A stretch of 64,000 nucleotides of DNA. Source: Clostridium sp. BJN0001. Lineage in GTDB: Bacteria > Bacillota > Clostridia > Clostridiales > Clostridiaceae. The position numbers and the translations under genes were made by a program. Location of the stretch: NCBI RefSeq assembly GCF_022869825.1, contig NZ_CP094971.1:2619501-2683500 (forward strand), read 5' to 3'. Below, piece by piece: positions 9,966 through 29,133 of the stretch. Below the pieces are notes generated by a model. It did not search any database. It was not told the DNA's origin and was given only the letters and a program-made list of their open reading frames with translations. Numbering within the stretch: position 1 is the stretch's first letter; the number at the start of each line of letters is the position of its first letter.

Positions 9966-10022
9966 TTAAAGTACATTGTATACGGCAATAAGTATTAAAT
10001 CAGATTTTCCTTCTTCCTTAGG
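9966..10022 (-). pseudogene. Stranded 3' end of the split nitroreductase gene
   Basis: Read on the minus strand this encodes ...PK-EEGKSDLILIAVYNVL-stop. It continues in frame from the nitroreductase fragment that ends at 29128-29133, using the shared CTTAGG as a single copy. The 19.1-kb insertion separates the two parts. It ends only 23 bases from the right end of peptide module A. Confidence 0.85.
10017..10022. repeat. Target-site duplication CTTAGG, left copy
   Basis: CTTAGG immediately precedes the left transposon end. The same six bases directly follow the right end of copy 2 at 29128-29133, within a codon-matched gene. Confidence 0.85.
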
Positions 10023-10200
10023 TATTGAACGTCAAATTATTTGATGCTAATATCATAACTTTATTTGATGCTAAAAATGAATATATTCTTCAAAATCTTC
10101 AATGAAAATGAGGCTACTTCGTTACGGTTTATGATGATAAATATTCTGAATATTACAAAAAAATCCACAAATACCTTATTGATATTTGCAGATTTTACTT

Positions 10201-11004
10201 TTATCCAAGTTCAGTTTCATTAACAGCAAGCATTATTATGTCACTATCAATTGTATTCATATTTTTTGTATTGCCTATCATAAGGCTAGAATCACAGATT
10301 TTATTAACAATTCTAGGAACTCCGTTCGAAGCGTTAGCAATTGCTTCAAGAGCGGTATCATCAAAAATATCAGTATTACATTTAGCACCAGTAAGCTTTG
10401 CTAATATATAGTCTTTAGTTTCTGATTTTGTGAGATTATCTAAATTATAATTCATTGTTATACGTTGTCTTAAAGGCTCATTAGCAACTAGCCTCATGGT
10501 ATTATTTAACTGAGGAAGCCCCACAAGAAGTACTATTGCACGATCTCTTGAATCCATGTCAAAATTAAAAAGCATTTTTAAATCATTAAGTATTCCATTA
10601 CTTACATAATTAGCTTCATCAATAATTATTACAGGAGTTATACGTTTTTCAACTGAATATCTAGTTATTTCATTTTGGATAATTTTGAAATTATCAATTT
10701 TTCTGCACATTGGCTCTAGTCCAAGCTGGGCAGCCATATTTTTATAAAATTCTGCAACAGTAAGTGTAGAAAGGGAACTATAAATAACTTTATAAAGTGA
10801 TGAATTAAGGCTATTAGACCAGTTTCTTATTATTGTAGTTTTACCTCGCCCTGGACCTCCGGTCAGGATTCCGAAACCTTTATTATTAAGTAAATAATTA
10901 AGTCTACAAATAACTTCTTTATAGTCAGAAGTTTCTACTACTATTTCCTTAGAATTTTTTATAAACGGATTAAAATCCATTCCATATCTACTTATATAAT
11001 CCAT
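10201..11004 (-). CDS. Transposition AAA ATPase, TniB/ExeA-like (copy 1)
   Basis: The protein has 267 residues. Walker A is GGPGRGKTT (about residues 48-56), Walker B is VIIIDEANYVS (about 125), sensor 1 is LLVGLPQLNNT and the arginine finger lies in EPLRQRI. This is the ExeA/TnsC/TniB group of AAA+ proteins that select target DNA and activate a DDE transposase. The start overlaps the transposase gene by one base (shared A), so the two are coupled. The copy at 26257-27060 has the same protein sequence. Confidence 0.85.
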   Translation of the reverse strand: MDYISRYGMDFNPFIKNSKEIVVETSDYKEVICRLNYLLNNKGFGILTGGPGRGKTTIIRNWSNSLNSSLYKVIYSSLSTLTVAEFYKNMAAQLGLEPMCRKIDNFKIIQNEITRYSVEKRITPVIIIDEANYVSNGILNDLKMLFNFDMDSRDRAIVLLVGLPQLNNTMRLVANEPLRQRITMNYNLDNLTKSETKDYILAKLTGAKCNTDIFDDTALEAIANASNGVPRIVNKICDSSLMIGNTKNMNTIDSDIIMLAVNETELG

Positions 11005-12248
11005 TATTCTTGACCTCCAGTAAGTTTTATTTTTTCCCTTTTTATAACAGAATTATCATGCTTATTTAAAAGCTTTATTTCTGTAAGTTCAGAAGTGTTT
11101 TTATCAACTACATAAATTTTGCTTAAATCAGGTGAATATCTTAGGGTTATTCTTTGTTTTGAGTATCTATAATCAACTTCATATTCTGTTTCATCTATCA
11201 TAACTACGTTATCGGCTGATACTCTTCTTTCATATTCAAGTAAAAAGGAAGTTTCAATTTGTTCATCTGTAAGCCTTTTAATCATGTGAGATTCCTTGAA
11301 AAACCTGTCCTGTGGAGATAGTCCATCTAGAGAAGAATGTATATGCTGATTATAGCTATTAACATATGAAATAAGGCTTATCCTAAGTTCATCTAAATTA
11401 TTAAAATCATTCATATTAAGCTGGGACATCCATTGATCTTTTAATGTACGAAACCACCTTTCAATTTTAGCTTTTGATTGTGGGGTATAGGGTGCACAAT
11501 AACTAATAGTTGTACCTATTCTAGCTGCTAAAAGTTCCATTTGCTTGTTCTTATATGAAGCACCATTATCAAAGTTTAAGATTTTAGGTTTCCCGAATCG
11601 TGTAACAGCAGATTTTAAAACAGACATAAGATTTACAAAATTATCATTAAAAAATACATCTATTCCTGTTATGTATCTTGAAGCATCATCAATAAGTGCT
11701 ATTATGTAAACGCGTTTCTTTTTACCATCTACCTTCAAATAAGGTCCAACGCTGCTGTCACCACACCATACTTCATTTATATGAGCACGCTCATATCTTT
11801 TCATATCTTTATTTTTAGAATATTTATTCTCAAGCTTAAGAACATTAACATACCTATTAATTGTTGAAAGTGAAATATCTCCTTTAACAATAGTTCCATT
11901 GTTAATAAGCTTTTGATAGATAAGTGTTGCTGGGATTCTTGGATATTCTTGTTTTAAATATTTAATCTGTTCTGTAATATCAGAATCTAATTTACGTGTT
12001 CTTCCAGTGTCGCATCGTTTTACAGGTATGAGTGCCTCAAAGCCCTTATTCTTGTAATTGTAATACCAACGTTCAAGAGTAGCAGCAGCTACCTTAGTAT
12101 CTTCACCATCTGGAGTCTGATATACTTTGCCTGCGGCATCTCGGAAAAATTGTTTAACACTTTTATTTTCATCATAAGTACCACTTATCAGAGGAGCCAA
12201 GATTCCGTACCTGAAAAGTGCTATTTCTTTTCTAGTTTTTTCGTCCAT
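11004..12248 (-). CDS. DDE transposase, TniA/Mu-type integrase core (copy 1)
   Basis: The protein has 414 residues. An N-terminal helix-turn-helix region (KVAAATLERWYYNYKNKG) is followed by the rve catalytic core, with Asp in EVWCGDSSVGPY (~163), Asp in ILNFDNGASYKN (~223), and Glu in YTPQSKAKIERWFRTLKDQ (~260). A C-terminal Mu-type beta-barrel domain follows. It catalyses strand cleavage and transfer. No TnsA-like endonuclease is encoded, so replicative (cointegrate) transposition is expected for this class. It has a Ser at the codon where copy 2 has Pro (NTSELTE versus NTPELTE). Confidence 0.88.
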   Translation of the reverse strand: MDEKTRKEIALFRYGILAPLISGTYDENKSVKQFFRDAAGKVYQTPDGEDTKVAAATLERWYYNYKNKGFEALIPVKRCDTGRTRKLDSDITEQIKYLKQEYPRIPATLIYQKLINNGTIVKGDISLSTINRYVNVLKLENKYSKNKDMKRYERAHINEVWCGDSSVGPYLKVDGKKKRVYIIALIDDASRYITGIDVFFNDNFVNLMSVLKSAVTRFGKPKILNFDNGASYKNKQMELLAARIGTTISYCAPYTPQSKAKIERWFRTLKDQWMSQLNMNDFNNLDELRISLISYVNSYNQHIHSSLDGLSPQDRFFKESHMIKRLTDEQIETSFLLEYERRVSADNVVMIDETEYEVDYRYSKQRITLRYSPDLSKIYVVDKNTSELTEIKLLNKHDNSVIKREKIKLTGGQE

Positions 12249-12329
12249 ATTTTGAAAAAGCCTCCTTTGTTTTATTACAATATAAGCTTATATCTACATA
12301 AATTAACAGTAAAACTAAGTTATGTGGTT

Positions 12330-12863
12330 TTACGAAAATAAAATATTATTGATGCATTTAATTTGCATAAATTGTCTTTTAAAGTTTTTTAAACATTGCT
12401 TTGAAATACTTAAATCTAATGAAATTTTAAATGAAGTAATACGTTCCTTCCAATGCTCTAGATATTGTTTTATTATATAAAAAATATTGCTTTCATCGAT
12501 AAATTCATTAGCTATCATAATGGGTTCAAAAGAAGCTTTGGAATTATAAGCATTAATAATTGAAATATGATCACATAAAAGAATTTGAGAATAAGGTACA
12601 ATACACTCTGGAAATATAGCATGAGTTTTATTGCAACATGTACACTTTGCTCTAAGAATTGTTATAGATATCTTGCCATCACTGTTTTTAACAGTTCTCT
12701 TGTAATAACCATGCTTTACAAGCTGCCCGGACCTTCCGCAGGAACAAGTAAGTTTGTGAAAATCTATGTCTTTAATAAATTTATCATAGGATTTTTGCGT
12801 TAATGACTTGATTTTTGAATCTAAATTAGATATGATTTTTGTATCATAAATATTAGTTATCAT
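12330..12863 (-). CDS. Zinc-motif accessory protein of the transposon (DUF6431-like, copy 1)
   Basis: The protein has 177 residues. The N-terminal half carries two CxC-type pairs, LTCSCGRSGQLVKHGYYKR and LRAKCTCCNKTHAIFP. This is a treble-clef arrangement like the N-terminal zinc domain of ISL3-type transposases and DUF6431 proteins. The C-terminal half is helical and Lys-rich. It is the first gene of the transposon operon, 81 bases upstream of the transposase. The role is unknown. By position it could be the target- or end-recognition subunit, as TniQ is in related transposons, but there is no sequence proof. No good ribosome site is visible. Confidence 0.75.
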   Translation of the reverse strand: MITNIYDTKIISNLDSKIKSLTQKSYDKFIKDIDFHKLTCSCGRSGQLVKHGYYKRTVKNSDGKISITILRAKCTCCNKTHAIFPECIVPYSQILLCDHISIINAYNSKASFEPIMIANEFIDESNIFYIIKQYLEHWKERITSFKISLDLSISKQCLKNFKRQFMQIKCINNILFS

Positions 12864-12876
12864 AGAATTTATGGTT

Positions 12877-12921
12877 AGCAGAGCAACAAAACTTTGGTCG
12901 GTGGTGTTGCTCTGCTTTTTT
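12877..12921 (+). terminator. Strong hairpin at the transposon right end (copy 1)
   Basis: AGCAGAGCAACA (12877-12888) pairs with TGTTGCTCTGCT, then T6. It sits just upstream of the first transposon gene and would stop transcription running rightward. On the minus strand it is a leader hairpin. A second hairpin (AAGCATTA...TAATGCTT, about 12964-13013) would stop outside transcription entering the operon. Confidence 0.65.
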
Positions 12922-13071
12922 CCTTTCTAAGAATAATATAAAATAATAATATACTAAAAAAGGCAAGCATTAAATACTTTGACTAAAATTTAGTCATGCA
13001 AATAATGCTTGCTCTTTATTTATTTTGAAGATATTTAAATTTTTTAACATCATATAAAATGCTATTCTATA

Positions 13072-14327
13072 GTAATACAGTAGATTGTCTAGAGTTAGTA
13101 AGAAAACTGATTGATATCGGTGTTTATATTTATTTTGAAAAAGAGAATCTAAATACGGGTGATATGGAAAGTGAACTGATGCTTTCTATTCTTTCAGGGT
13201 TTGCTGCAGAAGAGTCTGCATCTATTTCACAAAACTCAACATGGTCCATTCAAAAGAGATTTCAAAATGGCAGTTATGTTGGTACTCCACCCTACGGCTA
13301 CACCAATACAGATGGTGAAATGGTAATCGTCCCAGAAGAAGCAGAAATCATCAAACGTATTTTTACTGAGTGCCTTTCAGGGAAAGGTGGAGGTACTATA
13401 GCAAGAGGTTTGAACAAAGACAAAATTCCTGCAAGTAGAGGTAATCACTGGAGTGCAGGCACGGTGATAGACATGCTTCGAAACGAAAAATATATGGGTG
13501 ATGTCCTACTGCAAAAGACTTACACCGATAGTAACTACAACCGCCATCCAAACACAGGGGAAAAAAACCAATACTACTACAAGGATAATCATGAACCTAT
13601 TATAAGTAGAGAAGACTTTGCTAAGGCACAAGATCTCATTGATGAAAGAGCCAAGATGAAGTGTAAGGGCGTGAAAAAGAACGTTTATCTTAATCGATAT
13701 GCTTTAAGTGGCAAGATTGTCTGTGGAGAGTGTGGTCGCAATTTTAGGAGAAAGACAAACTACTCAGCTTGTAGGAGTTACATTGCTTGGAGTTGCATCG
13801 GTCATATTGAAGACAAAGAGAGTTGCTCCATGTTGTTCTTGCAAGATGGGGAAATCAAAGCCACATTTACAACCATGATGAATAAGCTTGCTTTCAGTAA
13901 CAAACTAATCCTAGAGCCACTTTTCAAATCAATTAGCCAAATTGATGAAGAAAGCGACCGTGAAAGAATGGATGCTATTGATAAGCGAATGGAGCAACTA
14001 ATGGAAGAACGCAATACCCTTATTACACTGATGGCCAAAGGTTTCCTTGAGCCAGCTCTTTTTAATCAGGAACGAAATGTTTTAGATAGTGAGATGAAAA
14101 ATCTTTCAACTGAAAAAACAAACCTTGTATCAAATTCCGCGAGTGAGATTTTGCGAGCAAACGAGATAAAGGACCTCATTAATTACGTGTCAGCAGATAA
14201 TTTTAATGGTGACTACACGGAAGAACTATTTGAAGAATTTGTAGAGAACATCATTGTAAATTCCAGGGATGAGCTGACATTCAATTTAAAATGCGGTCTT
14301 TCCCTGAAAGAAAAGGTGGTGAGATAA
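13072..14327 (+). pseudogene. Large serine recombinase 1, N-terminus deleted by transposon copy 1
   Basis: The recombinase sequence begins in frame exactly at the transposon end with NTVDCLELVRKLIDIGVYIY. The N-terminal ~75 residues with the catalytic serine are gone, so the protein is inactive. What remains is the end of the resolvase domain, the recombinase domain (PPYGYTNTDGEMVIVPEEAE), the zinc ribbon (CGECGRNFRRK with a second Cys pair) and the C-terminal coiled coil. The open frame's ATG at 13059 is provided by the transposon. Base use is less AT-rich than the host core, in keeping with transfer. Confidence 0.85.
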
Positions 14328-14744
14328 ATGGCATATATTCCATATGGATACAAAATTCAAGATGGAGTGGTTACTGTCGATGAAAAGGCAGCAGGTCAAG
14401 TAAAGGTATTCTTTGAGAAATACATATCAGGACTATCCCTTACAGTGGCTGGCGAACAGGCAGGTATTGATAAGACACATTCTGTGATGGGTCGCATTTT
14501 GAAAAACGTCAACTACCTTGGAAATGATACATATCCAGCAATTATTGATAAAGAGATATTTGATAAAGCTGAAGAAGTTAGAGATAAGCGTGCAAAGGAT
14601 TTAGGACGAGTGGTAGAGCTTGCCGCTTTCACCTCTCCCCCTCCCAAAGAACGATTCAAAATGAAAAAGGCAGATAATAAGATGCCAGTTGATCCTTTTG
14701 AACGAGCAGAATACTTATATAGTCTGATAGAAAGCGAGGAATAA
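14328..14744 (+). CDS. Small recombinase-associated protein (recombinase-domain only)
   Basis: The protein has 138 residues and its ATG immediately follows the upstream stop. It begins [19 protein letters not shown] and contains [23 protein letters not shown], the DNA-binding recombinase domain without the catalytic resolvase domain. Such short proteins lie between two large serine recombinases in integrative elements of Firmicutes. The operon is recombinase, small protein, recombinase, all on the plus strand. It is intact as a reading frame but probably non-functional now, because both flanking recombinases are broken. Confidence 0.8.
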
Positions 14745-14745
14745 A

Positions 14746-15473
14746 GTGACAGAGAAAAATATAATGGTTATTCCTGCTCGTAAAAGAGTAGGAAGTACAG
14801 CCGCAAAAGAAAAGATAAAGAAACTTCGTGTTGCTGCCTATTGCCGTGTTTCTACAGAAACAGAAGAACAAAATTCTAGCTATGAGGTTCAGGTCGCACA
14901 CTATACAGAGTTTATAAAGAAAAATAATGAATGGGAGTTTGCTGGCATCTTTGCAGATGATGGTATCTCTGGTACGAACACTAAAAAGCGTGACGAATTT
15001 AATCGCATGATTGCAGAGTGTATGGACGGTAACATTGACATGGTTATTACAAAATCCATCAGCCGATTTGCGCGTAACACCCTAGACTGCCTTCAATACA
15101 TTAGACAGCTCAAGGATAAGAACATATCCGTCTATTTTGAAAAAGAGAACATCAACACCATGGATGCCAAGGGTGAGGTGCTACTTACCATTATGGCATC
15201 TCTAGCACAACAGGAAAGCCAGAGCCTTTCACAAAACGTTAAGCTTGGCCTACAGTACCGATACCAACAAGGAAAGGTGCAGGTCAACCATAAGCGATTT
15301 ATGGGCTACACGAAAGATGAAGATGGAAATTTAATTATTGTCCCCGAAGAAGCTGAGATTATCAAACGCATCTACCGAGAATACCTTGAAGGTCAGAGTC
15401 TAGTGGGTATTGGTCGAGGTCTTGAAAAGGATGGTATATTAACAGCAGCGGGAAAACCAAGATGGCGACCGGA
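14746..15473 (+). pseudogene. Large serine recombinase 2, 5' part (split by IS triplet)
   Basis: The gene starts at GTG 14746, 7 bases after GAGGA and one base past the upstream stop. The resolvase domain is complete: [20 protein letters not shown] with the catalytic Ser in RVST, and [15 protein letters not shown]. The recombinase domain begins at [20 protein letters not shown]. The coding sequence is broken after KPRWRP at the 10-bp duplication GGCGACCGGA and resumes at 20103. Joining the two parts through one copy of the duplication gives ...WRPESVKKILQNEKYIG, a normal recombinase sequence. Apart from the insertion the gene looks intact. Confidence 0.88.
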
Positions 15474-17006
15474 CAATGTCGTCAACTTAGTAGATTAAGC
15501 TATGCAAAAATAAATTGAAAGAAATCATTTTTGATGTCTATTTTAATTTATCTTAAAAAATGGTACACTAAATAAATCCACTGGATAAAGTGAATTTTAA
15601 ATATGTATTTATTTATATTTAATATTAAAAACAGGATTTAATATTATGATGGTGCTTTTTTCTTGGATGTTTGTTTTTGCGCTCACAAGATCGGTTGCAA
15701 CGTATTTGTGAGCGTATTTTTATAGCTTTTTCAAGTATTAATTCTAACAGCTTATTTCTTAATCTAGATTTAACTAATAAAGCTATAATTCGTTTGAATA
15801 CCTGTCCCAAAATAAAATTCCTATTTGATTGATATATTGAATTTAAATCTTTATCCTTATTATCATTTGATATCGCAGCATCGGCATCTTTTTTTATAAG
15901 AGCTGCAATCATCGATAAATAAATAGAAACGTAAAAATCTTGCTTTATGGCAATTGGCTTAGTACCTGAAAATTCTTCGATTTTAAGACTGCATTTTAAT
16001 TCTTTATATTTAGATTCAACGCCCCATCTTAAGAAATAGAGTTCTTTGAATTTTAAAGGCGTAATAGTATCATCATAGATGTTAGTCACTAAAGTTTCTG
16101 TCACCTCATCTGACAGCTTAACTTTTACTACTCTTATTTTTTTTATTTCACCTTTAACTTTATATTTTAAAATAAAGTCAGGGGAATCTATTGATTGTGC
16201 AAGTTTAAAAGATGTTGATACTCGCATTAAAAATAGTAATTCCTTGGAATTTAAATAATCAAACATATCATATGAAGGATAGCCTCTATCAAAAATAACA
16301 ATGCTTTTTCGAGGACAGAATTTATCTCCTATTGACTCTATATGTTGTTTTGCAATATGTCTTTCACTTGTCTTATATTTAGTAATTCTAGAATCTACAA
16401 TAATGTCATTTAATACATCATATAAGGCTGACGCCGTCGCAATAGCAGTTCTTGTCTTATTTTGATTACTGCTTAATCCAAAATATTCACCACATTCTTT
16501 TGTATCTGGCACTTGTAGACTAGTTCCATCTACAGCTAGAATATTAAAACCATTCCAAGTGTTTAAATTTTTATTTATACTATAAAATTTATCAACAAAA
16601 AGTCTGCATAATTCATTAAAGGCTTCTGGTGATATATTTTGTCTTGCCTTAGAAAATGCTTGTTTTGTTATTGACGGAAATTTTAAACATTTATGATCTT
16701 CAATAAAATTATCAATTTCAGAAGAGATGGATTTTCGCAATGCGGAGCAAATAAAATGAACCGTATTTGAAAAGGATAGTTTTCTATTCCTTGAGAATGA
16801 GTTACCTAAGCTGTATGCTTCTTTGTACTCACTTGAAGTAATTAAATCGTTTGTTTCTTTTAAAATTAAAGATAATAATCTAGTATTTTTCATAATGTAA
16901 AACCTCGCTATAAATTTATTTCTCTATAGCGAGGCTGCAAAATTTTCCACTATTGTCAAGTGTTTTTTTTATTAAATTATCATTTTCTCTTAAGTTGACG
17001 ACATTG
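15474..17006 (-). mobile_element. IS4-family insertion sequence, tandem copy 1
   Basis: Length 1,533 bp. Inverted ends are CAATGTCGTCAACTTA and its complement TAAGTTGACGACATTG. The flanking duplication is 10 bp, as in the IS231-like part of the IS4 family. Upstream of the transposase, CCTCGCTATA and TATAGCGAGG (16903-16934) form a hairpin that would bury the ribosome site in transcripts entering from outside. Confidence 0.85.
15625..16893 (-). CDS. IS4-family DDE transposase (copy 1)
   Basis: The protein has 422 residues. The catalytic Asp residues lie in ILAVDGTSLQ (about 121) and SIVIFDRGYPSYDMF (about 203). The Glu lies in the family signature YFLRWGVESKYKELK, which fits the Y-(2)-R-(3)-E-(6)-K motif. 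The C-terminal tail is very basic (RKNKHPRKKHHHN). It cuts and pastes the element in which it lies. The ribosome site CGAGG is 9-10 bases from the ATG and inside a protective hairpin. All three copies encode the same protein. Confidence 0.9.
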   Translation of the reverse strand: MKNTRLLSLILKETNDLITSSEYKEAYSLGNSFSRNRKLSFSNTVHFICSALRKSISSEIDNFIEDHKCLKFPSITKQAFSKARQNISPEAFNELCRLFVDKFYSINKNLNTWNGFNILAVDGTSLQVPDTKECGEYFGLSSNQNKTRTAIATASALYDVLNDIIVDSRITKYKTSERHIAKQHIESIGDKFCPRKSIVIFDRGYPSYDMFDYLNSKELLFLMRVSTSFKLAQSIDSPDFILKYKVKGEIKKIRVVKVKLSDEVTETLVTNIYDDTITPLKFKELYFLRWGVESKYKELKCSLKIEEFSGTKPIAIKQDFYVSIYLSMIAALIKKDADAAISNDNKDKDLNSIYQSNRNFILGQVFKRIIALLVKSRLRNKLLELILEKAIKIRSQIRCNRSCERKNKHPRKKHHHNIKSCF

Positions 17007-17016
17007 GGCGACCGGA

Positions 17017-18549
17017 CAATGTCGTCAACTTAGTAGATTAAGCTATGCAAAAATAAATTGAAAGAAATCATTTTTGATGTCTATTTTAATTTATCTTAAA
17101 AAATGGTACACTAAATAAATCCACTGGATAAAGTGAATTTTAAATATGTATTTATTTATATTTAATATTAAAAACAGGATTTAATATTATGATGGTGCTT
17201 TTTTCTTGGATGTTTGTTTTTGCGCTCACAAGATCGGTTGCAACGTATTTGTGAGCGTATTTTTATAGCTTTTTCAAGTATTAATTCTAACAGCTTATTT
17301 CTTAATCTAGATTTAACTAATAAAGCTATAATTCGTTTGAATACCTGTCCCAAAATAAAATTCCTATTTGATTGATATATTGAATTTAAATCTTTATCCT
17401 TATTATCATTTGATATCGCAGCATCGGCATCTTTTTTTATAAGAGCTGCAATCATCGATAAATAAATAGAAACGTAAAAATCTTGCTTTATGGCAATTGG
17501 CTTAGTACCTGAAAATTCTTCGATTTTAAGACTGCATTTTAATTCTTTATATTTAGATTCAACGCCCCATCTTAAGAAATAGAGTTCTTTGAATTTTAAA
17601 GGCGTAATAGTATCATCATAGATGTTAGTCACTAAAGTTTCTGTCACCTCATCTGACAGCTTAACTTTTACTACTCTTATTTTTTTTATTTCACCTTTAA
17701 CTTTATATTTTAAAATAAAGTCAGGGGAATCTATTGATTGTGCAAGTTTAAAAGATGTTGATACTCGCATTAAAAATAGTAATTCCTTGGAATTTAAATA
17801 ATCAAACATATCATATGAAGGATAGCCTCTATCAAAAATAACAATGCTTTTTCGAGGACAGAATTTATCTCCTATTGACTCTATATGTTGTTTTGCAATA
17901 TGTCTTTCACTTGTCTTATATTTAGTAATTCTAGAATCTACAATAATGTCATTTAATACATCATATAAGGCTGACGCCGTCGCAATAGCAGTTCTTGTCT
18001 TATTTTGATTACTGCTTAATCCAAAATATTCACCACATTCTTTTGTATCTGGCACTTGTAGACTAGTTCCATCTACAGCTAGAATATTAAAACCATTCCA
18101 AGTGTTTAAATTTTTATTTATACTATAAAATTTATCAACAAAAAGTCTGCATAATTCATTAAAGGCTTCTGGTGATATATTTTGTCTTGCCTTAGAAAAT
18201 GCTTGTTTTGTTATTGACGGAAATTTTAAACATTTATGATCTTCAATAAAATTATCAATTTCAGAAGAGATGGATTTTCGCAATGCGGAGCAAATAAAAT
18301 GAACCGTATTTGAAAAGGATAGTTTTCTATTCCTTGAGAATGAGTTACCTAAGCTGTATGCTTCTTTGTACTCACTTGAAGTAATTAAATCGTTTGTTTC
18401 TTTTAAAATTAAAGATAATAATCTAGTATTTTTCATAATGTAAAACCTCGCTATAAATTTATTTCTCTATAGCGAGGCTGCAAAATTTTCCACTATTGTC
18501 AAGTGTTTTTTTTATTAAATTATCATTTTCTCTTAAGTTGACGACATTG
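17017..18549 (-). mobile_element. IS4-family insertion sequence, tandem copy 2
   Basis: Identical in structure to copy 1, with the same ends and with GGCGACCGGA on both sides. Confidence 0.85.
17168..18436 (-). CDS. IS4-family DDE transposase (copy 2)
   Basis: Same 422-residue protein as at 15625-16893, with intact DDE and Y-R-E-K motifs and the same upstream hairpin. The three copies share direction, so transcription from one can enter the next. The leader hairpin should then limit translation of read-through transcripts. Confidence 0.9.
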   Translation of the reverse strand: MKNTRLLSLILKETNDLITSSEYKEAYSLGNSFSRNRKLSFSNTVHFICSALRKSISSEIDNFIEDHKCLKFPSITKQAFSKARQNISPEAFNELCRLFVDKFYSINKNLNTWNGFNILAVDGTSLQVPDTKECGEYFGLSSNQNKTRTAIATASALYDVLNDIIVDSRITKYKTSERHIAKQHIESIGDKFCPRKSIVIFDRGYPSYDMFDYLNSKELLFLMRVSTSFKLAQSIDSPDFILKYKVKGEIKKIRVVKVKLSDEVTETLVTNIYDDTITPLKFKELYFLRWGVESKYKELKCSLKIEEFSGTKPIAIKQDFYVSIYLSMIAALIKKDADAAISNDNKDKDLNSIYQSNRNFILGQVFKRIIALLVKSRLRNKLLELILEKAIKIRSQIRCNRSCERKNKHPRKKHHHNIKSCF

Positions 18550-20937: not shown

Positions 20938-20952
20938 AAACCAGAAGTAAAT

Positions 20953-20991: not shown

Positions 20992-21079
20992 CTTGCTGAT
21001 TATAATAATATTTTAATAACTATTGTATTTATCAACCAAACGGTTTATAATATTCTTAGCGTAAACTTGGAGGTGTTGT

Positions 21080-21304
21080 ATGACTACGGCAGAAATGATT
21101 AAAGAACTGTGTGAGCAAATGAATATAAGCGTTTCTGAACTTGCTAGACGTATTGGCCAGACTCCACAGAATTTCAATAAGAAATTGAAACGGGAAACGG
21201 TAACCTTGGATGAGTTGAAAGCCATCGCTGATATGCTTGGTGTCAAGTTTGTGCAGGCATTTGTTTTACCTGATGGTGATGAGATAAAAATATCTAACGA
21301 GTAA
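21080..21304 (+). CDS. Small Cro/CI-type (XRE) regulator
   Basis: The protein has 74 residues and is almost entirely a helix-turn-helix: ELCEQMNISVSELARRIGQT is followed by the recognition helix PQNFNKKLKRETV. A TGGAGGT ribosome site precedes the ATG. It is followed by a small hypothetical gene and the Crp/Fnr-type gene on the same strand with close spacing, so it probably opens this transcription unit. It may be part of the mobile element's own control rather than of the metal operon. Confidence 0.82.
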   Translation: MTTAEMIKELCEQMNISVSELARRIGQTPQNFNKKLKRETVTLDELKAIADMLGVKFVQAFVLPDGDEIKISNE

Positions 21305-21322
21305 AGGAGGCGGTCTAATATA

Positions 21323-21565
21323 ATGATTAGTCCGGAAAGTTACTATGAAGAGTATCTCAAAGGAAAGACAAAGGAAGAAATAATGACCGCCATCCGAGGA
21401 CTTAAGCAAGAAATAGGACGTCTAAAAAGTACACTGGAAAATCCTGACTATGATGATAACGCAATTATTCATCCGGATAAGTTTACCTACATTTACTGGA
21501 CTCGTGGATACTTGGAAAAAGCTAAAGAGACCTTAAGAGAGAATATGAAAGGGGCATTCAAATGA
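21323..21565 (+). CDS. Small hypothetical protein between XRE and Crp/Fnr genes
   Basis: The protein has 80 residues, highly charged and probably all-helical (YYEEYLKGKTKEEIMTAIRG, then KFTYIYWTRGYLEKAKETL). It has an AAAGGAGG ribosome site and overlaps the next start codon by 4 bases (ATGA), which shows coupling. I do not recognise the family. Similar short proteins accompany XRE regulators in Firmicute integrative elements. Confidence 0.7.
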   Translation: MISPESYYEEYLKGKTKEEIMTAIRGLKQEIGRLKSTLENPDYDDNAIIHPDKFTYIYWTRGYLEKAKETLRENMKGAFK

Positions 21566-22326
21566 AAAAAAAGGATTTGATGCATGAAATTAAAAATCAA
21601 TATATAGAAAAACAAGGGTATCACGATGTTACTCACACTCATCATCAAGGACATGAGTCAGCTTCACATGCTTCATGTATCACTGTAGTTCCGATCTTTA
21701 ATCATTTAGAAGGAGAACAGATGGATGAAATTATGAAAGTAACGAAATCGACCTCTTTTAAAAAGGGTGAAGTAATTTACCGAGAGGGAGATATATCCGA
21801 CTTGTTATATATTGTAAGTAAAGGGAAGATTCGAATTTACCGTTTGTCTGAATCAGGAAAAGAACAATTAGTGAGAATATTAAATCCAGGCGATTTCACT
21901 GGAGAGCTTGCCTTGTTTCGCGAATCAATTCAGGAAGCATATGCAGAAGCAATGAGTGATACCGATGTATGTATGATTAGTAGAAATGATTTACAAGAAT
22001 TTTTATTAAAGTACCCTACTATATCTTTGAAGATTTTATCGGAATTCTCTAACCGATTAGAAACATCAGAAAAACAAACAACTAGATTTGCCATAGAGAA
22101 GGTAGATACTAGATTAGCACTGTTTCTTGCAGAATGCATGGAAAGCGGAGATGGTCCAATGGAAATTGAATTGCCAATGAGTAAAAAGGATTTAGCCTCT
22201 TATCTAGGAACTACTCCAGAAACTATTAGTAGAAAGTTAGCTGACCTTGAAAATGAAGGATATATAAAACAAAAATCAGGTAGAAAGATTGAGATTTTGG
22301 ATTTAGATGGATTGTTGTTGGTATAG
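21562..22326 (+). CDS. Crp/Fnr-family regulator with His/Cys-rich N-terminus
   Basis: The protein has 254 residues. The N-terminal extension is rich in possible metal ligands (YHDVTHTHHQGHESASHASC). A cyclic-nucleotide-binding-type barrel follows (FKKGEVIYREGDISDLLYIV; LNPGDFTGELALF), then a dimer helix and a winged helix-turn-helix with KKDLASYLGTTPETISRKLADLE, the FNR-type recognition helix. The four-Cys [4Fe-4S] cluster pattern of E. coli FNR is absent. Redox or metal sensing through the His/Cys extension is inference. Two TTGAT-N4-ATCAA boxes downstream (22388, 24707) fit its recognition helix, so it probably controls the metal genes that follow. Confidence 0.85.
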   Translation: MKKKDLMHEIKNQYIEKQGYHDVTHTHHQGHESASHASCITVVPIFNHLEGEQMDEIMKVTKSTSFKKGEVIYREGDISDLLYIVSKGKIRIYRLSESGKEQLVRILNPGDFTGELALFRESIQEAYAEAMSDTDVCMISRNDLQEFLLKYPTISLKILSEFSNRLETSEKQTTRFAIEKVDTRLALFLAECMESGDGPMEIELPMSKKDLASYLGTTPETISRKLADLENEGYIKQKSGRKIEILDLDGLLLV

Positions 22327-22387
22327 ATGTGATAATATAAAGTAAAATAGTAGTAAAAATTATTAAAACATTTAAAAAAGACTAAAC

Positions 22388-22401
22388 TTGATTTAGATCA
22401 A
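22388..22401 (+). promoter_or_regulatory. FNR-type operator and promoter of the metal operon
   Basis: TTGATTTAGATCAA is a perfect FNR-box palindrome. A -10-like TATTAT lies at about 22424. The predicted start of transcription puts the box centre near -41.5, the class II activation position. Confidence 0.75.
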
Positions 22402-22475
22402 TTTAATTTCTTTCAATCTATAGTATTATATAATCAAGATAAAGAAAAAATAAAACAAGAAAGAAGGAAAAAAAT

Positions 22476-22778
22476 ATGTCAAGACAATTAAATTTTAATC
22501 AAGTAAAGGAAACTCATTTAAAAACATTAGCACAATATGTTCCAGTTGTAGCAAAAGTTCATGGAGGAAATCATCCAGAATTCTACCAGGTTCGTAAAGT
22601 ATATGATGAACTTGCAAAGAAAGCAAAAGATGCGGGAGTAGAAAAGCCGGACTTAAAAGAGGAGTTTGTAAAATTACGTGAAATCACAGATAATTATACA
22701 GTTCCAGGTGATGTATGCGAAAGTTATGAAGCAGTATATAACATGTTAGCAGAATTAGATAAAGCATATGAAGCATAA
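22476..22778 (+). CDS. Small hemerythrin/RIC-like protein
   Basis: The protein has 100 residues and is helical. The segment QYVPVVAKVHGGNHPEFYQVRKVYDELAKKA matches one helix pair of the RIC/ScdA iron-sulfur repair and hemerythrin-like proteins (the HGxNHPE motif). The other His/Glu ligands of a full di-iron site are missing, so it would be half a module or need a partner. It lies behind an FNR-type promoter and 52 bases before the P-type ATPase gene, so it probably assists metal or redox homeostasis. The family assignment is tentative. Confidence 0.65.
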   Translation: MSRQLNFNQVKETHLKTLAQYVPVVAKVHGGNHPEFYQVRKVYDELAKKAKDAGVEKPDLKEEFVKLREITDNYTVPGDVCESYEAVYNMLAELDKAYEA

Positions 22779-22830
22779 AAGAAAATAAACAAAGCAATGA
22801 AAAGATATAAATAATCTAATAGGGAGGAGT

Positions 22831-24684
22831 ATGAATGTGCAAAAATTTATATTAGGAAGAAAAAACCATATTACAATAGTAAGTGCAATCTTAATAATAA
22901 TGGCATTTGTCAGTAAATTAGGCTTCGAAAACGAACAAATAGCCATATGGGCATTAGTAATTGCTTCAATTTTGGGAGTTTTACCTATTGCGATTCAAGC
23001 GTATCAAGCATTAAAAGTCAAAGTAGTTAGTATTGATGTTTTAGTTACCATTGCAGTTATCGGAGCCTTTATAATTAGAAACTACGAAGAATCAGCAATT
23101 GTTACATTTTTATTTCTATTTGGAGCTTATCTAGAACAAAGGACACTTAATAAAACACGTTCTGCAATTAAAGAATTAACTCAAATAGCACCAGAAAGTG
23201 CCTTAAAACAAGTGGAAAATGGTGAGTTTGAAGAAGTAGAAATAGATGAAGTTGATGTAGGAGATATTTTGCTTGTTAAAACGGGTGCAAAAATCCCAGT
23301 TGACGGTACAGTGTTAACAGGAGAAGGGCATATTAATGAAGCAAGTATTACCGGAGAAGCGGTTCCTGTAAGTAAAAAGGAAGGTTCGAGGGTATATGCC
23401 GGAACAATTTTAGAAAATGGAACTATTCAAATCACTGCTGATCGTGTAGGTGAGGATACTACTTTTGGTAAAATCATTGAGTTGGTTGAAGAAGCACAGG
23501 ATTCAAAATCAGAAGCAGAACGTTTCATTGATAGATTTTCTAAATACTACACACCAGCTGTTTTGGTTCTCTCTTTTATTGTATGGATATTTTCAAGGGA
23601 TATTGAACTTGCAATTACAATATTAGTTTTAGGATGTCCAGGAGCATTGGTAATCGGTGTACCGGTTTCAAACGTCGCGGGGATTGGCAATGGAGCACGT
23701 CATGGAGTCCTTCTAAAAGGTAGCGAGGTTATTAGTGATTTTAGCAGACTAGATACCATTGTATTTGACAAAACAGGTACATTAACAATAGGAAATCCCA
23801 AAGTAGCTGATAAAGAAATTTATGCAGATAATGTAAATGAAGTATTAGGGTATCTAGCAAGTGTTGAAAAGGAATCAGATCATCCATTAGCAAAAGCAGT
23901 TGTAGAATATATTGGAGATATAAAATTATATACAGTTGAAAAAACAGATGTTGTAAAAGGTGGAGGAATTGTAGCTCATGTAGAAGGTCATAAAGTTGCA
24001 GTCGGTAATGTGGCACTAATGGAGCAAGAAAATGTTCTTTTAAGTGAAAAAGCTCGTGCAGATATTGCCAGATTTGAGAAAAATGGAAATTCACTTGTTT
24101 TAACATCAGTTGATGGTGAATTAAAGGCATTGATGGGTATTCGTGATCAAATTCGCCCGGGTGTAAAAGATGATCTTAAAAAGTTGAAAAAACTTGGTGT
24201 TAAAAATCTAGTAGTTCTTTCTGGTGATAACCAAGGAACAGTTGATTTAGTAGCACGTGAACTAGGACTTACAGAAGCTCATGGACATATGTTGCCAGAA
24301 GATAAAGCAACATATATTAAAGAGTTACAAGAAAAAGGTCAAATTGTGGCATTTGTTGGAGATGGAGTAAATGATAGTCCTTCACTAGCTCTAGCACAAA
24401 TTGGAATTGCCATGGGAGGCGGAACAGATGTAGCCATAGAAACGTCAGATGTTGTTTTAATGAATTCAGATTTTAGTCTCTTGCCACATGCACTAGGTTT
24501 AACAAAAGCGACAGCTAATAACATGCGACAAAATATTTTTATTGCAGTTGGAGTTGTATTAGTCCTGTTAGCTAGCGTATTTTTTAGTGACTGGATGAAT
24601 ATGTCAATCGGAATGTTAGTACACGAAGCAAGCATATTAGTGGTCATTTTAAATGGCATGAGGTTGCTACGCTACAAACTATGA
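22831..24684 (+). CDS. P1B-type heavy-metal ATPase with CPG motif
   Basis: The protein has 617 residues. Conserved P-type motifs are present: TGE (174-176), phosphorylated Asp313 in DKTGT, HP (351-352) and GDGVND (510-515). The membrane metal-site motif, normally CPC or another CPx, reads C269-P270-G271 in LVLGCPGALVIG. No N-terminal HMA domain is present; a separate HMA protein is encoded downstream. The ATPase probably exports a transition or heavy metal, but the metal cannot be told from the sequence. A GGGAGGAG ribosome site precedes the ATG at 22831. Similar ATPases paired with Fnr-like regulators occur in lactobacilli and enterococci. Confidence 0.9.
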   Translation: MNVQKFILGRKNHITIVSAILIIMAFVSKLGFENEQIAIWALVIASILGVLPIAIQAYQALKVKVVSIDVLVTIAVIGAFIIRNYEESAIVTFLFLFGAYLEQRTLNKTRSAIKELTQIAPESALKQVENGEFEEVEIDEVDVGDILLVKTGAKIPVDGTVLTGEGHINEASITGEAVPVSKKEGSRVYAGTILENGTIQITADRVGEDTTFGKIIELVEEAQDSKSEAERFIDRFSKYYTPAVLVLSFIVWIFSRDIELAITILVLGCPGALVIGVPVSNVAGIGNGARHGVLLKGSEVISDFSRLDTIVFDKTGTLTIGNPKVADKEIYADNVNEVLGYLASVEKESDHPLAKAVVEYIGDIKLYTVEKTDVVKGGGIVAHVEGHKVAVGNVALMEQENVLLSEKARADIARFEKNGNSLVLTSVDGELKALMGIRDQIRPGVKDDLKKLKKLGVKNLVVLSGDNQGTVDLVARELGLTEAHGHMLPEDKATYIKELQEKGQIVAFVGDGVNDSPSLALAQIGIAMGGGTDVAIETSDVVLMNSDFSLLPHALGLTKATANNMRQNIFIAVGVVLVLLASVFFSDWMNMSIGMLVHEASILVVILNGMRLLRYKL

Positions 24685-24706
24685 AAATAAACAACAAATT
24701 AAGCTG

Positions 24707-24720
24707 TTGATGTAAATCAA
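24707..24720 (+). promoter_or_regulatory. FNR-type operator and promoter of the HMA gene
   Basis: TTGATGTAAATCAA is a perfect FNR-type palindrome. TATAAT lies at 24743-24748, again placing the operator centre near -41.5. Confidence 0.75.
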
Positions 24721-24779
24721 TTTAATGATGATAATAATCGAGTATAATAAAATCGATATAAACTAAAGGAGAGAAGAAA

Positions 24780-25013
24780 ATGCAAAAAGCAACGATTCAA
24801 TTAGAAACATTAACATGTCCGTCTTGTATGCAAAAAATAGAGAATGGTGTGAAATCTTTGGACGGGGTAAGTAAAGAGAGTTTAAAAGTACTATTTAATT
24901 CAAGTAAGGTGAGGGTGGAATTTGACGATGAAAAAGTATCTATAAAAGACATTGAACATGTTATCGACAAATTAGGTTATGAAGTATTAAAATCCCAGGT
25001 CAAAAATATTTAA
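24780..25013 (+). CDS. HMA-domain metallochaperone (CopZ-like)
   Basis: The protein has 77 residues in a single ferredoxin-like HMA domain with the metal-binding motif TCPSCMQKIE (Cys at about 14 and 17). The motif is CxxC without the Met that precedes it in copper-type MxCxxC, so the preferred metal is uncertain. An AAAGGAGAG ribosome site precedes the ATG, and an FNR-type box of its own allows it to be made together with the ATPase operon. It presumably delivers metal to the ATPase, which lacks an HMA domain of its own. Confidence 0.85.
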   Translation: MQKATIQLETLTCPSCMQKIENGVKSLDGVSKESLKVLFNSSKVRVEFDDEKVSIKDIEHVIDKLGYEVLKSQVKNI

Positions 25014-25131
25014 GTAACGAACCACTTAAGTTTATATGGGAGATAGTGTTTGGGAAGCATTTTTTCCTAAGAACTGTATTAGAGGAGCTATGTAATAAAA
25101 CCATACTTTGACTGATATGTTCTCACATACG

Positions 25132-25171
25132 AATTCCCTCTGTGGATATGTTTCCACAGAGGGAATTTTCG
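25132..25171 (+). terminator. Strong terminator after the metal operon
   Basis: AATTCCCTCTGTGGA (25132-25146) pairs perfectly with TCCACAGAGGGAATT (25153-25167), followed by TTC. Confidence 0.85.
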
Positions 25172-25279
25172 ATAAAAGCATTTGAGCCAATATTTCTTGA
25201 CAGCTATAAACTTGTCTCAAAACATGTGGAGACGTGCGTCCTTTTGTCCCAACAAATGTAATTAAATAACAATTCCCCC

Positions 25280-26078
25280 GTTTCTCCCCGAAAACCAGCC
25301 CAAACCCCATAAACCCTGAACAAAACCAAAAACCCAATGGAGAATAAAGCCTGGAAACCCAAAAGGGAGAAGCAAAAACAGAATAAACCAAGCAAAATAG
25401 AGAGCTAATGAGAAAATCCCTAGCTCTTTTTTTCATGCTTCGAAGTAGCAAATAGATAAGAAAATAATAGGAAATACTCAATCAATAGAAATGCCAGGAA
25501 CCTAGGAATAAAGCCATTCGGAGCGATAGCTAGTTAGTCCTATTATAATAATGAAAAAGTTCTGTTCAATCTTTAATGGAAAAGACACTAAATCTTAAAC
25601 AGATAAGAAGTATCAGATACTACTTATCTGTTCAAACTTTATGGGGATAAATGAAGAAGAAAACAGGACTAAGACCAGTAATAATGAGAGATACAAGGAT
25701 AAATACAAGGAATATATGAAGAAGCTCTTATGACACTAAACCTTGAACAAAACCTCATAAACCTTGAATTATTGATGCTTCGCTATCCGACCTGAAAGGG
25801 GAATTATTGCAAGAAATGAAGGAAAAATAAAAAGACTGTAAACCTAGATAAATACATGCTTTAGAGGTGATTTGATAACAGGATGAAAACAGGGAAATAT
25901 GAAGAATTTCTATGGGAAATAAATTGGAAATTTAAAAGGGGCAAAATGTTCAAGGTTTAAGGGAAATTACACTAAACCTTGAACGCATAAGTGGTATTTG
26001 ATACCATCATTTTTGGTCAAAAATAGTGTTCAAGGTTTATGGGTATAAAAATTGAAATGTAGGAATGGTGGGAGATTG
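25280..26078. repeat. Iteron-rich non-coding segment, possible plasmid origin remnant
   Basis: At least eight copies or variants of TAAACCTTGAAC and its complement GTTCAAGGTTTA, in both orientations: about 25311, 25564, 25589, 25735, 25758, 25948, 25972 and 26028. The complement of 25589 occurs as GTTCAAACTTTATGG after 25620. Two inner palindromes occur, 25597-25629 (ACAGATAAG...CTTATCTGT) and 25992-26006 (TGGTATTTGATACCA). No gene with a start and domain is present. The pattern resembles iteron or operator arrays of a plasmid replication region, but no rep gene is visible in the interior. Confidence 0.55.
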
Positions 26079-26256
26079 TATTGAACGTCAAATTATTTGA
26101 TGCTAATATCATAACTTTATTTGATGCTAAAAATGAATATATTCTTCAAAATCTTCAATGAAAATGAGGCTACTTCGTTACGGTTTATGATGATAAATAT
26201 TCTGAATATTACAAAAAAATCCACAAATACCTTATTGATATTTGCAGATTTTACTT

Positions 26257-27060
26257 TTATCCAAGTTCAGTTTCATTAACAGCAAGCATTATTATGTCAC
26301 TATCAATTGTATTCATATTTTTTGTATTGCCTATCATAAGGCTAGAATCACAGATTTTATTAACAATTCTAGGAACTCCGTTCGAAGCGTTAGCAATTGC
26401 TTCAAGAGCGGTATCATCAAAAATATCAGTATTACATTTAGCACCAGTAAGCTTTGCTAATATATAGTCTTTAGTTTCTGATTTTGTGAGATTATCTAAA
26501 TTATAATTCATTGTTATACGTTGTCTTAAAGGCTCATTAGCAACTAGCCTCATGGTATTATTTAACTGAGGAAGCCCCACAAGAAGTACTATTGCACGAT
26601 CTCTTGAATCCATGTCAAAATTAAAAAGCATTTTTAAATCATTAAGTATTCCATTACTTACATAATTAGCTTCATCAATAATTATTACAGGAGTTATACG
26701 TTTTTCAACTGAATATCTAGTTATTTCATTTTGGATAATTTTGAAATTATCAATTTTTCTGCACATTGGCTCTAGTCCAAGCTGGGCAGCCATATTTTTA
26801 TAAAATTCTGCAACAGTAAGTGTAGAAAGGGAACTATAAATAACTTTATAAAGTGATGAATTAAGGCTATTAGACCAGTTTCTTATTATTGTAGTTTTAC
26901 CTCGCCCTGGACCTCCGGTCAGGATTCCGAAACCTTTATTATTAAGTAAATAATTAAGTCTACAAATAACTTCTTTATAGTCAGAAGTTTCTACTACTAT
27001 TTCCTTAGAATTTTTTATAAACGGATTAAAATCCATTCCATATCTACTTATATAATCCAT
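26257..27060 (-). CDS. Transposition AAA ATPase, TniB/ExeA-like (copy 2)
   Basis: Same protein as at 10201-11004, with Walker A GGPGRGKTT and Walker B VIIIDEANYVS. Coupled by overlap to the transposase gene of copy 2. Confidence 0.85.
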   Translation of the reverse strand: MDYISRYGMDFNPFIKNSKEIVVETSDYKEVICRLNYLLNNKGFGILTGGPGRGKTTIIRNWSNSLNSSLYKVIYSSLSTLTVAEFYKNMAAQLGLEPMCRKIDNFKIIQNEITRYSVEKRITPVIIIDEANYVSNGILNDLKMLFNFDMDSRDRAIVLLVGLPQLNNTMRLVANEPLRQRITMNYNLDNLTKSETKDYILAKLTGAKCNTDIFDDTALEAIANASNGVPRIVNKICDSSLMIGNTKNMNTIDSDIIMLAVNETELG

Positions 27061-28304
27061 TATTCTTGACCTCCAGTAAGTTTTATTTTTTCCCTTTTTA
27101 TAACAGAATTATCATGCTTATTTAAAAGCTTTATTTCTGTAAGTTCAGGAGTGTTTTTATCAACTACATAAATTTTGCTTAAATCAGGTGAATATCTTAG
27201 GGTTATTCTTTGTTTTGAGTATCTATAATCAACTTCATATTCTGTTTCATCTATCATAACTACGTTATCGGCTGATACTCTTCTTTCATATTCAAGTAAA
27301 AAGGAAGTTTCAATTTGTTCATCTGTAAGCCTTTTAATCATGTGAGATTCCTTGAAAAACCTGTCCTGTGGAGATAGTCCATCTAGAGAAGAATGTATAT
27401 GCTGATTATAGCTATTAACATATGAAATAAGGCTTATCCTAAGTTCATCTAAATTATTAAAATCATTCATATTAAGCTGGGACATCCATTGATCTTTTAA
27501 TGTACGAAACCACCTTTCAATTTTAGCTTTTGATTGTGGGGTATAGGGTGCACAATAACTAATAGTTGTACCTATTCTAGCTGCTAAAAGTTCCATTTGC
27601 TTGTTCTTATATGAAGCACCATTATCAAAGTTTAAGATTTTAGGTTTCCCGAATCGTGTAACAGCAGATTTTAAAACAGACATAAGATTTACAAAATTAT
27701 CATTAAAAAATACATCTATTCCTGTTATGTATCTTGAAGCATCATCAATAAGTGCTATTATGTAAACGCGTTTCTTTTTACCATCTACCTTCAAATAAGG
27801 TCCAACGCTGCTGTCACCACACCATACTTCATTTATATGAGCACGCTCATATCTTTTCATATCTTTATTTTTAGAATATTTATTCTCAAGCTTAAGAACA
27901 TTAACATACCTATTAATTGTTGAAAGTGAAATATCTCCTTTAACAATAGTTCCATTGTTAATAAGCTTTTGATAGATAAGTGTTGCTGGGATTCTTGGAT
28001 ATTCTTGTTTTAAATATTTAATCTGTTCTGTAATATCAGAATCTAATTTACGTGTTCTTCCAGTGTCGCATCGTTTTACAGGTATGAGTGCCTCAAAGCC
28101 CTTATTCTTGTAATTGTAATACCAACGTTCAAGAGTAGCAGCAGCTACCTTAGTATCTTCACCATCTGGAGTCTGATATACTTTGCCTGCGGCATCTCGG
28201 AAAAATTGTTTAACACTTTTATTTTCATCATAAGTACCACTTATCAGAGGAGCCAAGATTCCGTACCTGAAAAGTGCTATTTCTTTTCTAGTTTTTTCGT
28301 CCAT
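27060..28304 (-). CDS. DDE transposase, TniA/Mu-type (copy 2)
   Basis: Same as at 11004-12248 except Pro for Ser in NTPELTE near the C-terminus, caused by a base change at 27149. The catalytic DDE residues are intact, so either copy could mobilise the whole unit or a single transposon. Confidence 0.88.
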   Translation of the reverse strand: MDEKTRKEIALFRYGILAPLISGTYDENKSVKQFFRDAAGKVYQTPDGEDTKVAAATLERWYYNYKNKGFEALIPVKRCDTGRTRKLDSDITEQIKYLKQEYPRIPATLIYQKLINNGTIVKGDISLSTINRYVNVLKLENKYSKNKDMKRYERAHINEVWCGDSSVGPYLKVDGKKKRVYIIALIDDASRYITGIDVFFNDNFVNLMSVLKSAVTRFGKPKILNFDNGASYKNKQMELLAARIGTTISYCAPYTPQSKAKIERWFRTLKDQWMSQLNMNDFNNLDELRISLISYVNSYNQHIHSSLDGLSPQDRFFKESHMIKRLTDEQIETSFLLEYERRVSADNVVMIDETEYEVDYRYSKQRITLRYSPDLSKIYVVDKNTPELTEIKLLNKHDNSVIKREKIKLTGGQE

Positions 28305-28385
28305 ATTTTGAAAAAGCCTCCTTTGTTTTATTACAATATAAGCTTATATCTACATAAATTAACAGTAAAACTAAGTTATGTGGTT

Positions 28386-28919
28386 TTACGAAAATAAAAT
28401 ATTATTGGTGCATTTAATTTGCATAAATTGTCTTTTAAAGTTTTTTAAACATTGCTTTGAAATACTTAAATCTAATGAAATTTTAAATGAAGTAATACGT
28501 TCCTTCCAATGCTCTAGATATTGTTTTATTATATAAAAAATATTGCTTTCATCGATAAATTCATTAGCTATCATAATGGGTTCAAAAGAAGCTTTGGAAT
28601 TATAAGCATTAATAATTGAAATATGATCACATAAAAGAATTTGAGAATAAGGTACAATACACTCTGGAAATATAGCATGAGTTTTATTGCAACATGTACA
28701 CTTTGCTCTAAGAATTGTTATAGATATCTTGCCATCACTGTTTTTAACAGTTCTCTTGTAATAACCATGCTTTACAAGCTGCCCGGACCTTCCGCAGGAA
28801 CAAGTAAGTTTGTGAAAATCTATGTCTTTAATAAATTTATCATAGGATTTTTGCGTTAATGACTTGATTTTTGAATCTAAATTAGATATGATTTTTGTAT
28901 CATAAATATTAGTTATCAT
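28386..28919 (-). CDS. Zinc-motif accessory protein of the transposon (copy 2)
   Basis: Same as at 12330-12863 except Thr for Ile near the C-terminus (QIKCTNNILFS) from the change at 28408. Cys pairs are conserved. Confidence 0.75.
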   Translation of the reverse strand: MITNIYDTKIISNLDSKIKSLTQKSYDKFIKDIDFHKLTCSCGRSGQLVKHGYYKRTVKNSDGKISITILRAKCTCCNKTHAIFPECIVPYSQILLCDHISIINAYNSKASFEPIMIANEFIDESNIFYIIKQYLEHWKERITSFKISLDLSISKQCLKNFKRQFMQIKCTNNILFS

Positions 28920-29127
28920 AGAATTTATGGTTAGCAGAGCAACAAAACTTTGGTCGGTGGTGTTGCTCTGCTTTTTTCCTTTCTAAGAATAATATAAAAT
29001 AATAATATACTAAAAAAGGCAAGCATTAAATACTTTGACTAAAATTTAGTCATGTAAATAATGCTTGCTCTTTATTTATTTTGAAGATATTTAAATTTTT
29101 TAACATCATATAAAATGCTATTCTATA

Positions 29128-29133
29128 CTTAGG
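29128..29133. repeat. Target-site duplication CTTAGG, right copy
   Basis: Directly after the right transposon end. Matches 10017-10022. Confidence 0.85.

Follow-up and report, generated by a model that had tools for sequence, protein, structure and literature searches.

A 64,000-nucleotide stretch of the chromosome of Clostridium sp. BJN0001 (hereafter the window; positions 2619501-2683500 of C1, NZ_CP094971.1, a one-contig genome of 2,688,791 bases) contains two complete copies of a 3-kb transposon, placed in direct orientation around a passenger of 13 kb and interrupting, together with it, a nitroreductase gene. The structure is of the compound or pseudo-compound, or of the cointegrate, type, with the target repeat outermost. 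Our preferred reading, held with moderate confidence, is that 10023-29127 forms a single pseudo-compound transposon of 19.1 kb and that it inserted into the nitroreductase gene using its two outermost ends.

The two copies are 3,049 bp each, with a spacing of 16,056, and both are read on the minus strand. Copy T1 (10023-13071) carries genes for an AAA ATPase (10201-11004), a DDE transposase (11004-12248) and a DUF6431 protein (12330-12863); in copy T2 (26079-29127) these genes lie at 26257-27060, 27060-28304 and 28386-28919. Domains were scanned on the T2 proteins. The copies differ at three bases (11093/27149, 12352/28408 and 12999/29055); T1 has the majority sequence of the 13 copies present in the genome and all three differences are private to T2. 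Comparison of the flanks placed the target-site duplication CTTAGG at the outer ends only (10017-10022 on the left and 29128-29133 on the right, unstranded), the inner flanks, GTAATA to the right of T1 and AGATTG to the left of T2, being unmatched. The original prediction, made from the letters of the window, had described two direct copies with three differences, CTTAGG just outside their outer ends and unmatched inner flanks, and is confirmed down to the exact ends and positions.

The interrupted gene is read on the minus strand as well. Its C-terminal end, 18 codons and a stop, was recognized by translation and homologues at 9966-10022, and its N-terminal part, a nitroreductase of the TM1586 type (Pfam PF14512 and the public protein P0121), lies at 29128-29823. 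It had been predicted that the unit splits this gene, and a search for an uninterrupted form in relatives had been proposed; such forms were found. In genome G030 the nitroreductase is a continuous open reading frame (ORF) of 247 aa; when each window flank is compared with it separately, the two map to either side of a single point. In G037 an N-terminally shortened ORF of 169 aa runs unbroken across that point, which again separates the two window flanks. The protein P0121 (248 aa, nine member sequences) was the first match of a protein search made with the N-terminal part alone. Apart from the start codon, a single residue distinguishes it from this 232-residue part; the 18-residue C-terminal part, compared separately, is identical, and the two parts overlap on it by two residues, which correspond to the repeat. 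Such near identity means that the same species, or one very close to it, has an intact allele, and this suggests that the insertion is young. The original prediction had argued for a recent event from the likeness of T1 and T2; all 13 genome copies are near-identical, however, and this likeness has no dating value. A repeat of about 480 bp (9470-9953 and 30006-30479, the pair 95% identical) lies on both sides of the nitroreductase gene, and related sequences, at 82-88%, occur in several other members of the genus for which genomes were compared; an Rfam scan of 9000-31500, this repeat included, gave nothing at the gathering score.

At its left end the passenger begins within a gene. Serine recombinase gene 1 (13072-14327, plus strand, identified by Pfam) is cut by T1 and lacks its first approximately 103 codons; residues 3-422 of the window protein correspond to residues 101-520 of P0241, with 97% identity. 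Searched against the window, the missing start matched only recombinase 3 (60%), with nothing in 14 stretches round the other transposon copies, and a search of the whole genome returned only paralogues at 27-52%. A blastn search for distant matches of 13072-13804 among plasmids gave none. The hexamer AGATTG of the left inner flank of T2 occurs again at 13082-13087, within the right inner flank of T1 (11 bases in), possibly by chance.

At its right end the passenger runs through a putative right attachment junction of a serine-recombinase element (25197-25240, plus strand), with the core CATGTGGAGA at 25223-25232, into a repeat-rich target-side flank with no convincing gene (25223-26078, unstranded). 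The alignment of this flank with C1:2376784-2375922, 253 kb away, covers 856 bp and contains a single gap but no mismatch. The core, preceded by a similar TTGACA-containing stretch, also occurs in contig 4 of the relative G006, where other DNA follows, and at C1:2376784, where the DNA that follows is the same as in the window; contig 142 of G006 has a variant core. We infer the name attachment junction from these comparisons between the window, G006 and C1:2376784. In G006 the target sequences presumably encode the end part of an rRNA methyltransferase, judging from a translation read by eye. Among the best candidates (at most seven per genome) of 68 genomes of the genus, including this one, the flank was found only in its own genome and, at the junction, in G006. 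An attempt to read C1:2376784 as an empty attachment site was dropped, its left half also looking like an element end. The presence inside the passenger of the junction and of about 855 bp of target-side flank means that the passenger is a piece of an integrated element together with neighbouring DNA. The near-identity of the captured flank to the chromosome points to a conspecific donor, or else to this chromosome at an earlier time, when the element sat at C1:2376784; since that locus is uninterrupted where T2 joins the flank, it is not the donor in its present form. The transposon copy L035 lies 137 bp beyond the C1:2376784-2375922 match, in the same orientation. Several TAAACC(C/T)TGAACA-like motifs in both orientations are present in the flank and in its chromosomal match.

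The transposon itself belongs to a large family with a characteristic gene set. All three genes in the order DUF6431-DDE-AAA were found at 17 of 22 loci, the AAA gene being incomplete in some, and at the other five one or more of them is missing from the available DNA; in a relative on the Geobacillus plasmid pGS18 all three are annotated. The transposase has 414 aa, and its residues D164, D227 and E263, taken from their spacing as the DDE triad, are invariant in 34 of 34 aligned proteins. A profile of these 34 proteins found TnsB of the type V-K CRISPR-associated transposon (CAST) first (E=4.8e-10) and IstA of the IS21 type next (3.4e-6). A fold search with a predicted model of moderate quality (pLDDT 74.4, pTM 0.42) gave the same order, with V-K TnsB at the first four ranks, IstA fifth and MuA seventh. 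The Mu-transpos_C domain was matched at E<=0.01 by 17 of the 34 family members, the window protein reaching 17.3 bits against a cutoff of 21.7. Its best NCBIfam match, the IS481 model, scored 164.5 bits, under the cutoff of 224, and the IS21 model 67.5 bits, under the cutoff of 160. The profile of the AAA partner, compared with the PDB, found MuB weakly (4e-4) and level with RuvB; AAA_22 was present in 12 of 12 such proteins and the TniB Pfam domain in two of the 12. The third protein matches DUF6431 alone in Pfam, with no match to TniQ or TnsD. The 3,049 bp contain three ORFs longer than 72 aa; none of them is a recombinase in Pfam, and neither TnsA nor a resolvase was recognised. The transposon has end boxes at bases 18 and 42 on the left and 18 on the right, and its terminal 28 bases match at 20.

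From these comparisons the transposase appears TnsB/Mu-like, which makes cointegrate formation plausible; a replicative route is plausible because type V-K relatives that lack TnsA give more than 85% cointegrate reads, according to the excerpted text of PMC8188705. The original prediction had called it established that DDE/AAA transposons without a TnsA-type nuclease form cointegrates. A TnsB-like DDE/AAA element without a recognised TnsA or resolvase gene is supported; the word 'established' is too strong, IstA being almost as near. Relatives of the transposase are numerous, with 3,660 at E<=0.001 among 7,994 scored, and the nearest named ones are mostly clostridial. Transposon DNA was detected at E<=1e-30 in at least five of the 68 genus genomes (own included), once as a 275-bp piece, a lower bound given that at most four candidates per genome were scored. 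A DNA search of plasmids and phages gave no match to the transposon, and the 2,552 plasmid records matching the transposase protein are all below 60% identity.

Ten of the 13 near-identical copies in the genome are unbroken and three are split by an insertion sequence (IS) of 1,543 bp; 12 were found by their exact ends, and the 13th, L040, has an altered left end. Perfect 6-bp repeats flank four copies (L037, L038, L042 and L044). At L041 the repeat matches at five of six positions, and the two flanks were read by eye as one substrate-binding-type protein. The window pair T1/T2 is the one direct pair with a common repeat, and two inverted pairs also have one: L034/L036, 0.85 Mb apart, with CTCTGT, and L040/L043, 1.09 Mb apart, with ATGGAT. 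The flanks of L035 and L039 are unmatched. For 13 copies and hexamers drawn from the window, random expectation is 0.012 matches between the two flanks of the same copy and 0.12 between different copies; four and four were observed, and the target repeat is therefore not due to chance. One of the four cross matches, ATATAG between L038 and L040, was put down to chance. A stretch of the window at 56561-56923 has a 99.5% identical copy near L039 (C1 about 2.388 Mb).

At each of the two inverted pairs a single gene is divided. An alpha-amylase-type gene is shared out between L040 and L043: its two adjoining parts cover profile positions 128-188 and 187-446 and overlap at the repeat. The frames flanking L034 and L036, searched apart, match adjoining parts of one AraC-type regulator frame in four of seven loci of relatives (L120, L121, L122 and L125), and a further locus, L123, shows a match to a portion of the shorter frame. 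In the left flank of L036 (next to C1:1781105) an N-terminal fragment of a topoisomerase-type protein (Toprim) stops at the transposon; its split partner was not found among the three topoisomerase matches of the genome, which have frames of 712, 732 and 726 aa. The match of ATAAGT and ATAAGA at five of six positions between L034 and L036 is uninformative, the right flank of L034 showing, by eye, no continuation of the topoisomerase-type gene. We rejected the inverted pairs as proof of replicative inversion, because homologous recombination gives the same flank swap. Within the L040/L043 pair only L043 contains the 1,543-bp IS, at the same place as in L044, and L036 and L040 have one base difference in common. 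The distribution of the IS over L040/L043 as against L044 suggests that homologous recombination between dispersed copies happens in this genome; repeated insertion of the IS at a preferred site could be the alternative. The shared IS of L043 (C1:833740) and L044 (C1:2586930) lies inside the DUF6431 gene. L044 has a perfect target repeat, and a copy without an intact DUF6431 gene may thus have moved, perhaps with the help of other copies, or the IS may have come later.

In the course of events that we favour, two copies of the 3-kb transposon would have bracketed 13 kb of a donor chromosome, probably conspecific, that held an integrated three-recombinase element with metal and stress cargo, one copy inside recombinase gene 1 and the other about 855 bp past the right attachment site. 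Such a donor would already have been rearranged, either because two copies had landed there or because one copy had deleted adjacent DNA. The unit would then have entered the nitroreductase gene by its outermost ends, making the 6-bp CTTAGG; the likely route would be that one copy caused a replicative fusion, which RecA then resolved in such a way that the passenger changed place. With a pseudo-compound unit, no circle is needed to account for the repeat at the outer ends, the mismatch between the inner flanks, the loss of the start of recombinase 1 and the captured flank. Several points weigh against it. There was no sign that the unit has moved as a whole, and neither 13072-15463 nor 21000-25214 has a second full location in this genome; a genome search with 13072-15463 and 21000-26078 showed only 25215-26078 to recur, besides a 48-bp match and short weak ones. 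A donor with both copies was not found either: 318 plasmid records match the interior and none covers 80% of it. Both inner junctions gave 0 matches in viral contigs. The RecA step is borrowed from the precedent of the IS6 family, the replicative route is not certain because TnsB is only slightly closer than IstA to the transposase, and a circle excised from a two-copy donor gives the same final structure.

The original prediction had instead proposed that a circle of about 16 kb, the interior plus one copy, fused replicatively into the nitroreductase gene and was never resolved. The direct copies, the outer target repeat and a TnsB-like transposon without recognised TnsA or resolvase would all agree with such a cointegrate, and the unmatched flanks of L035 and L039 suggest that transposon-adjacent DNA can be lost. 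In a cointegrate, however, the donor's own repeats should be distributed over the inner flanks of the two daughters (PMC7986276, IS6 review, excerpt), and the simple one-copy circle fails because the inner flanks have no common repeat and recombinase 1 is not continued to the left of T2. Where the interior reaches T2 one finds, past the attachment junction, target-side flank rather than the recombinase 1 start, which the genome searches did not find. The circle would thus have to be a rearranged one, for example excised when recombinase gene 1 was attacked by the transposon copy next to the target-side flank. Two further points against it are that sister copies should start identical, yet T2 alone has private differences, three of them (a weak argument), and that no plasmid replication gene was recognised among the part of the interior ORFs that was scanned. 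We consider this origin unlikely. The same structure is also given by homologous (Campbell) recombination of a circle, with one copy and the interior, into a resident transposon at CTTAGG, which the original prediction did not mention. Exchange between dispersed copies, as suggested by the IS pattern of L040, L043 and L044 and the base difference common to L036 and L040, would make this feasible; but L043 and L044 could have gained the IS independently if it prefers the site, and the route requires both an earlier simple insertion and a circle, neither of which was seen, so that it appears quite improbable. Finally, assemblers are misled by repeats of the kind present here, with 13 almost identical transposon copies and, nearby, three IS in perfect tandem, and the second transposon copy or the interior might be misplaced. 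The one-contig genome, the three differences between the copies, the matching outer repeat and the continuous alleles, which agree with a single insertion at the nitroreductase site, make such an artefact very improbable. We retain the pseudo-compound transposon as the best explanation.

The remaining interior is made up of the recombinase operon and its cargo, all on the plus strand except for an IS array. Recombinase gene 1 is followed by a small ORF of 138 aa (14328-14744) with no Pfam match, annotated 'recombinase' in an Enterococcus plasmid relative, and by serine recombinase gene 3, recognized as ORF and by Pfam in two parts, N-terminal (14746-15498) and C-terminal (20269-20937). It is interrupted by three identical 1,543-bp copies of an IS4-family element in tandem (15464-20105, outer limits approximate, minus strand). 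The tandem is perfect, with one target-like sequence of about 11 bp between copies, and could reflect amplification or an assembly effect. A small ORF at 21080-21304 matches a helix-turn-helix (HTH) gene that, in the Enterococcus relative, comes next after the recombinases; the recombinase operon and HTH gene are about 95% identical to Enterococcus plasmid DNA. The cargo comprises a Crp/Fnr-type regulator (21562-22326, matches under curated cutoffs), a 100-aa protein weakly matching the iron-sulfur repair family RIC/ScdA (22476-22778; 48.6 bits, cutoff 204.7), a heavy-metal P-type ATPase (22831-24684; TIGR01525 over cutoff) and a 77-aa CxxC ORF (24780-25013), read as a heavy-metal-associated domain protein from so-named features in plasmid relatives. 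The cargo region 21480-25004 is 97% identical to contig 4 of G006.

The window thus offers a base-precise case in which a transposon family with thousands of relatives can lift part of an integrated mobile element together with its neighbourhood, in a chromosome reshaped by 13 near-identical copies. It is a known way of moving blocks of bacterial genes, well preserved and here the work of a little-studied family. A practical rule also emerges: the choice between circle fusion and compound unit is informed by the inner flanks, the ends of genes and the attachment junctions, and copy identity does not date the event. No description of the DUF6431-DDE-AAA gene set was recognised among the papers listed by the literature searches. 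In the library searched, DUF6431 turned up in a single paper, a study of sialic acid use in Ruminococcus gnavus; the excerpt of PMC10293859 deals with TnsC relatives with TniQ and has no direct bearing on this set. TnRErm46 (PMC6794481, excerpt) was considered and set aside: it has an IS481 transposase, but is of another kind. It is conceivable, although doubtful, that DUF6431-DDE-AAA elements form an unrecognised Mu/Tn7 branch without TniQ and resolvase, which would act in clostridia like IS26, producing pseudo-compound transposons that lift pieces of integrated elements with host flanks, megabase inversions and adjacent deletions, with DUF6431 as an accessory or target-choice protein.

Four known systems invite comparison. 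The passenger is like the three-serine-recombinase elements of Enterococcus plasmids (e.g. NZ_CP046168.1) in its operon and HTH gene, over 22% of the interior; unlike them it has other cargo, and the window copy is without its left end and has recombinases 1 and 3 broken. The transposase is like IS481, its best NCBIfam match, and RefSeq names the pGS18 relative 'IS481 family transposase'; it is unlike IS481 in its score under the cutoff and in its AAA and DUF6431 partner genes. With Tn5053/Tn402 (TniA-TniB-TniQ-TniR) and the TnsB/TnsC of type V-K CAST, as excerpts of PMC8188705 and PMC9527255 describe them, the transposon has in common an AAA partner, the lack of TnsA and repeated end boxes, and its DDE transposase is nearest to V-K TnsB by profile and fold; in contrast to these systems it shows no TniQ match and no recognised resolvase, and has a DUF6431 protein with conserved cysteines upstream instead; the 414-aa length of its transposase is a further difference. 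The unit as a whole resembles the pseudo-compound transposons and translocatable units of IS6/IS26, for which the excerpted review (PMC7986276) describes direct copies round a passenger, a new outer repeat and independent inner flanks, and expects adjacent deletions and inversions from intramolecular replicative transposition. Whereas IS6/IS26 units are built on an IS of about 0.8 kb that makes 8-bp repeats, the unit in the nitroreductase gene is built on a 3-kb, three-gene transposon of the TnsB/AAA type with 6-bp repeats.

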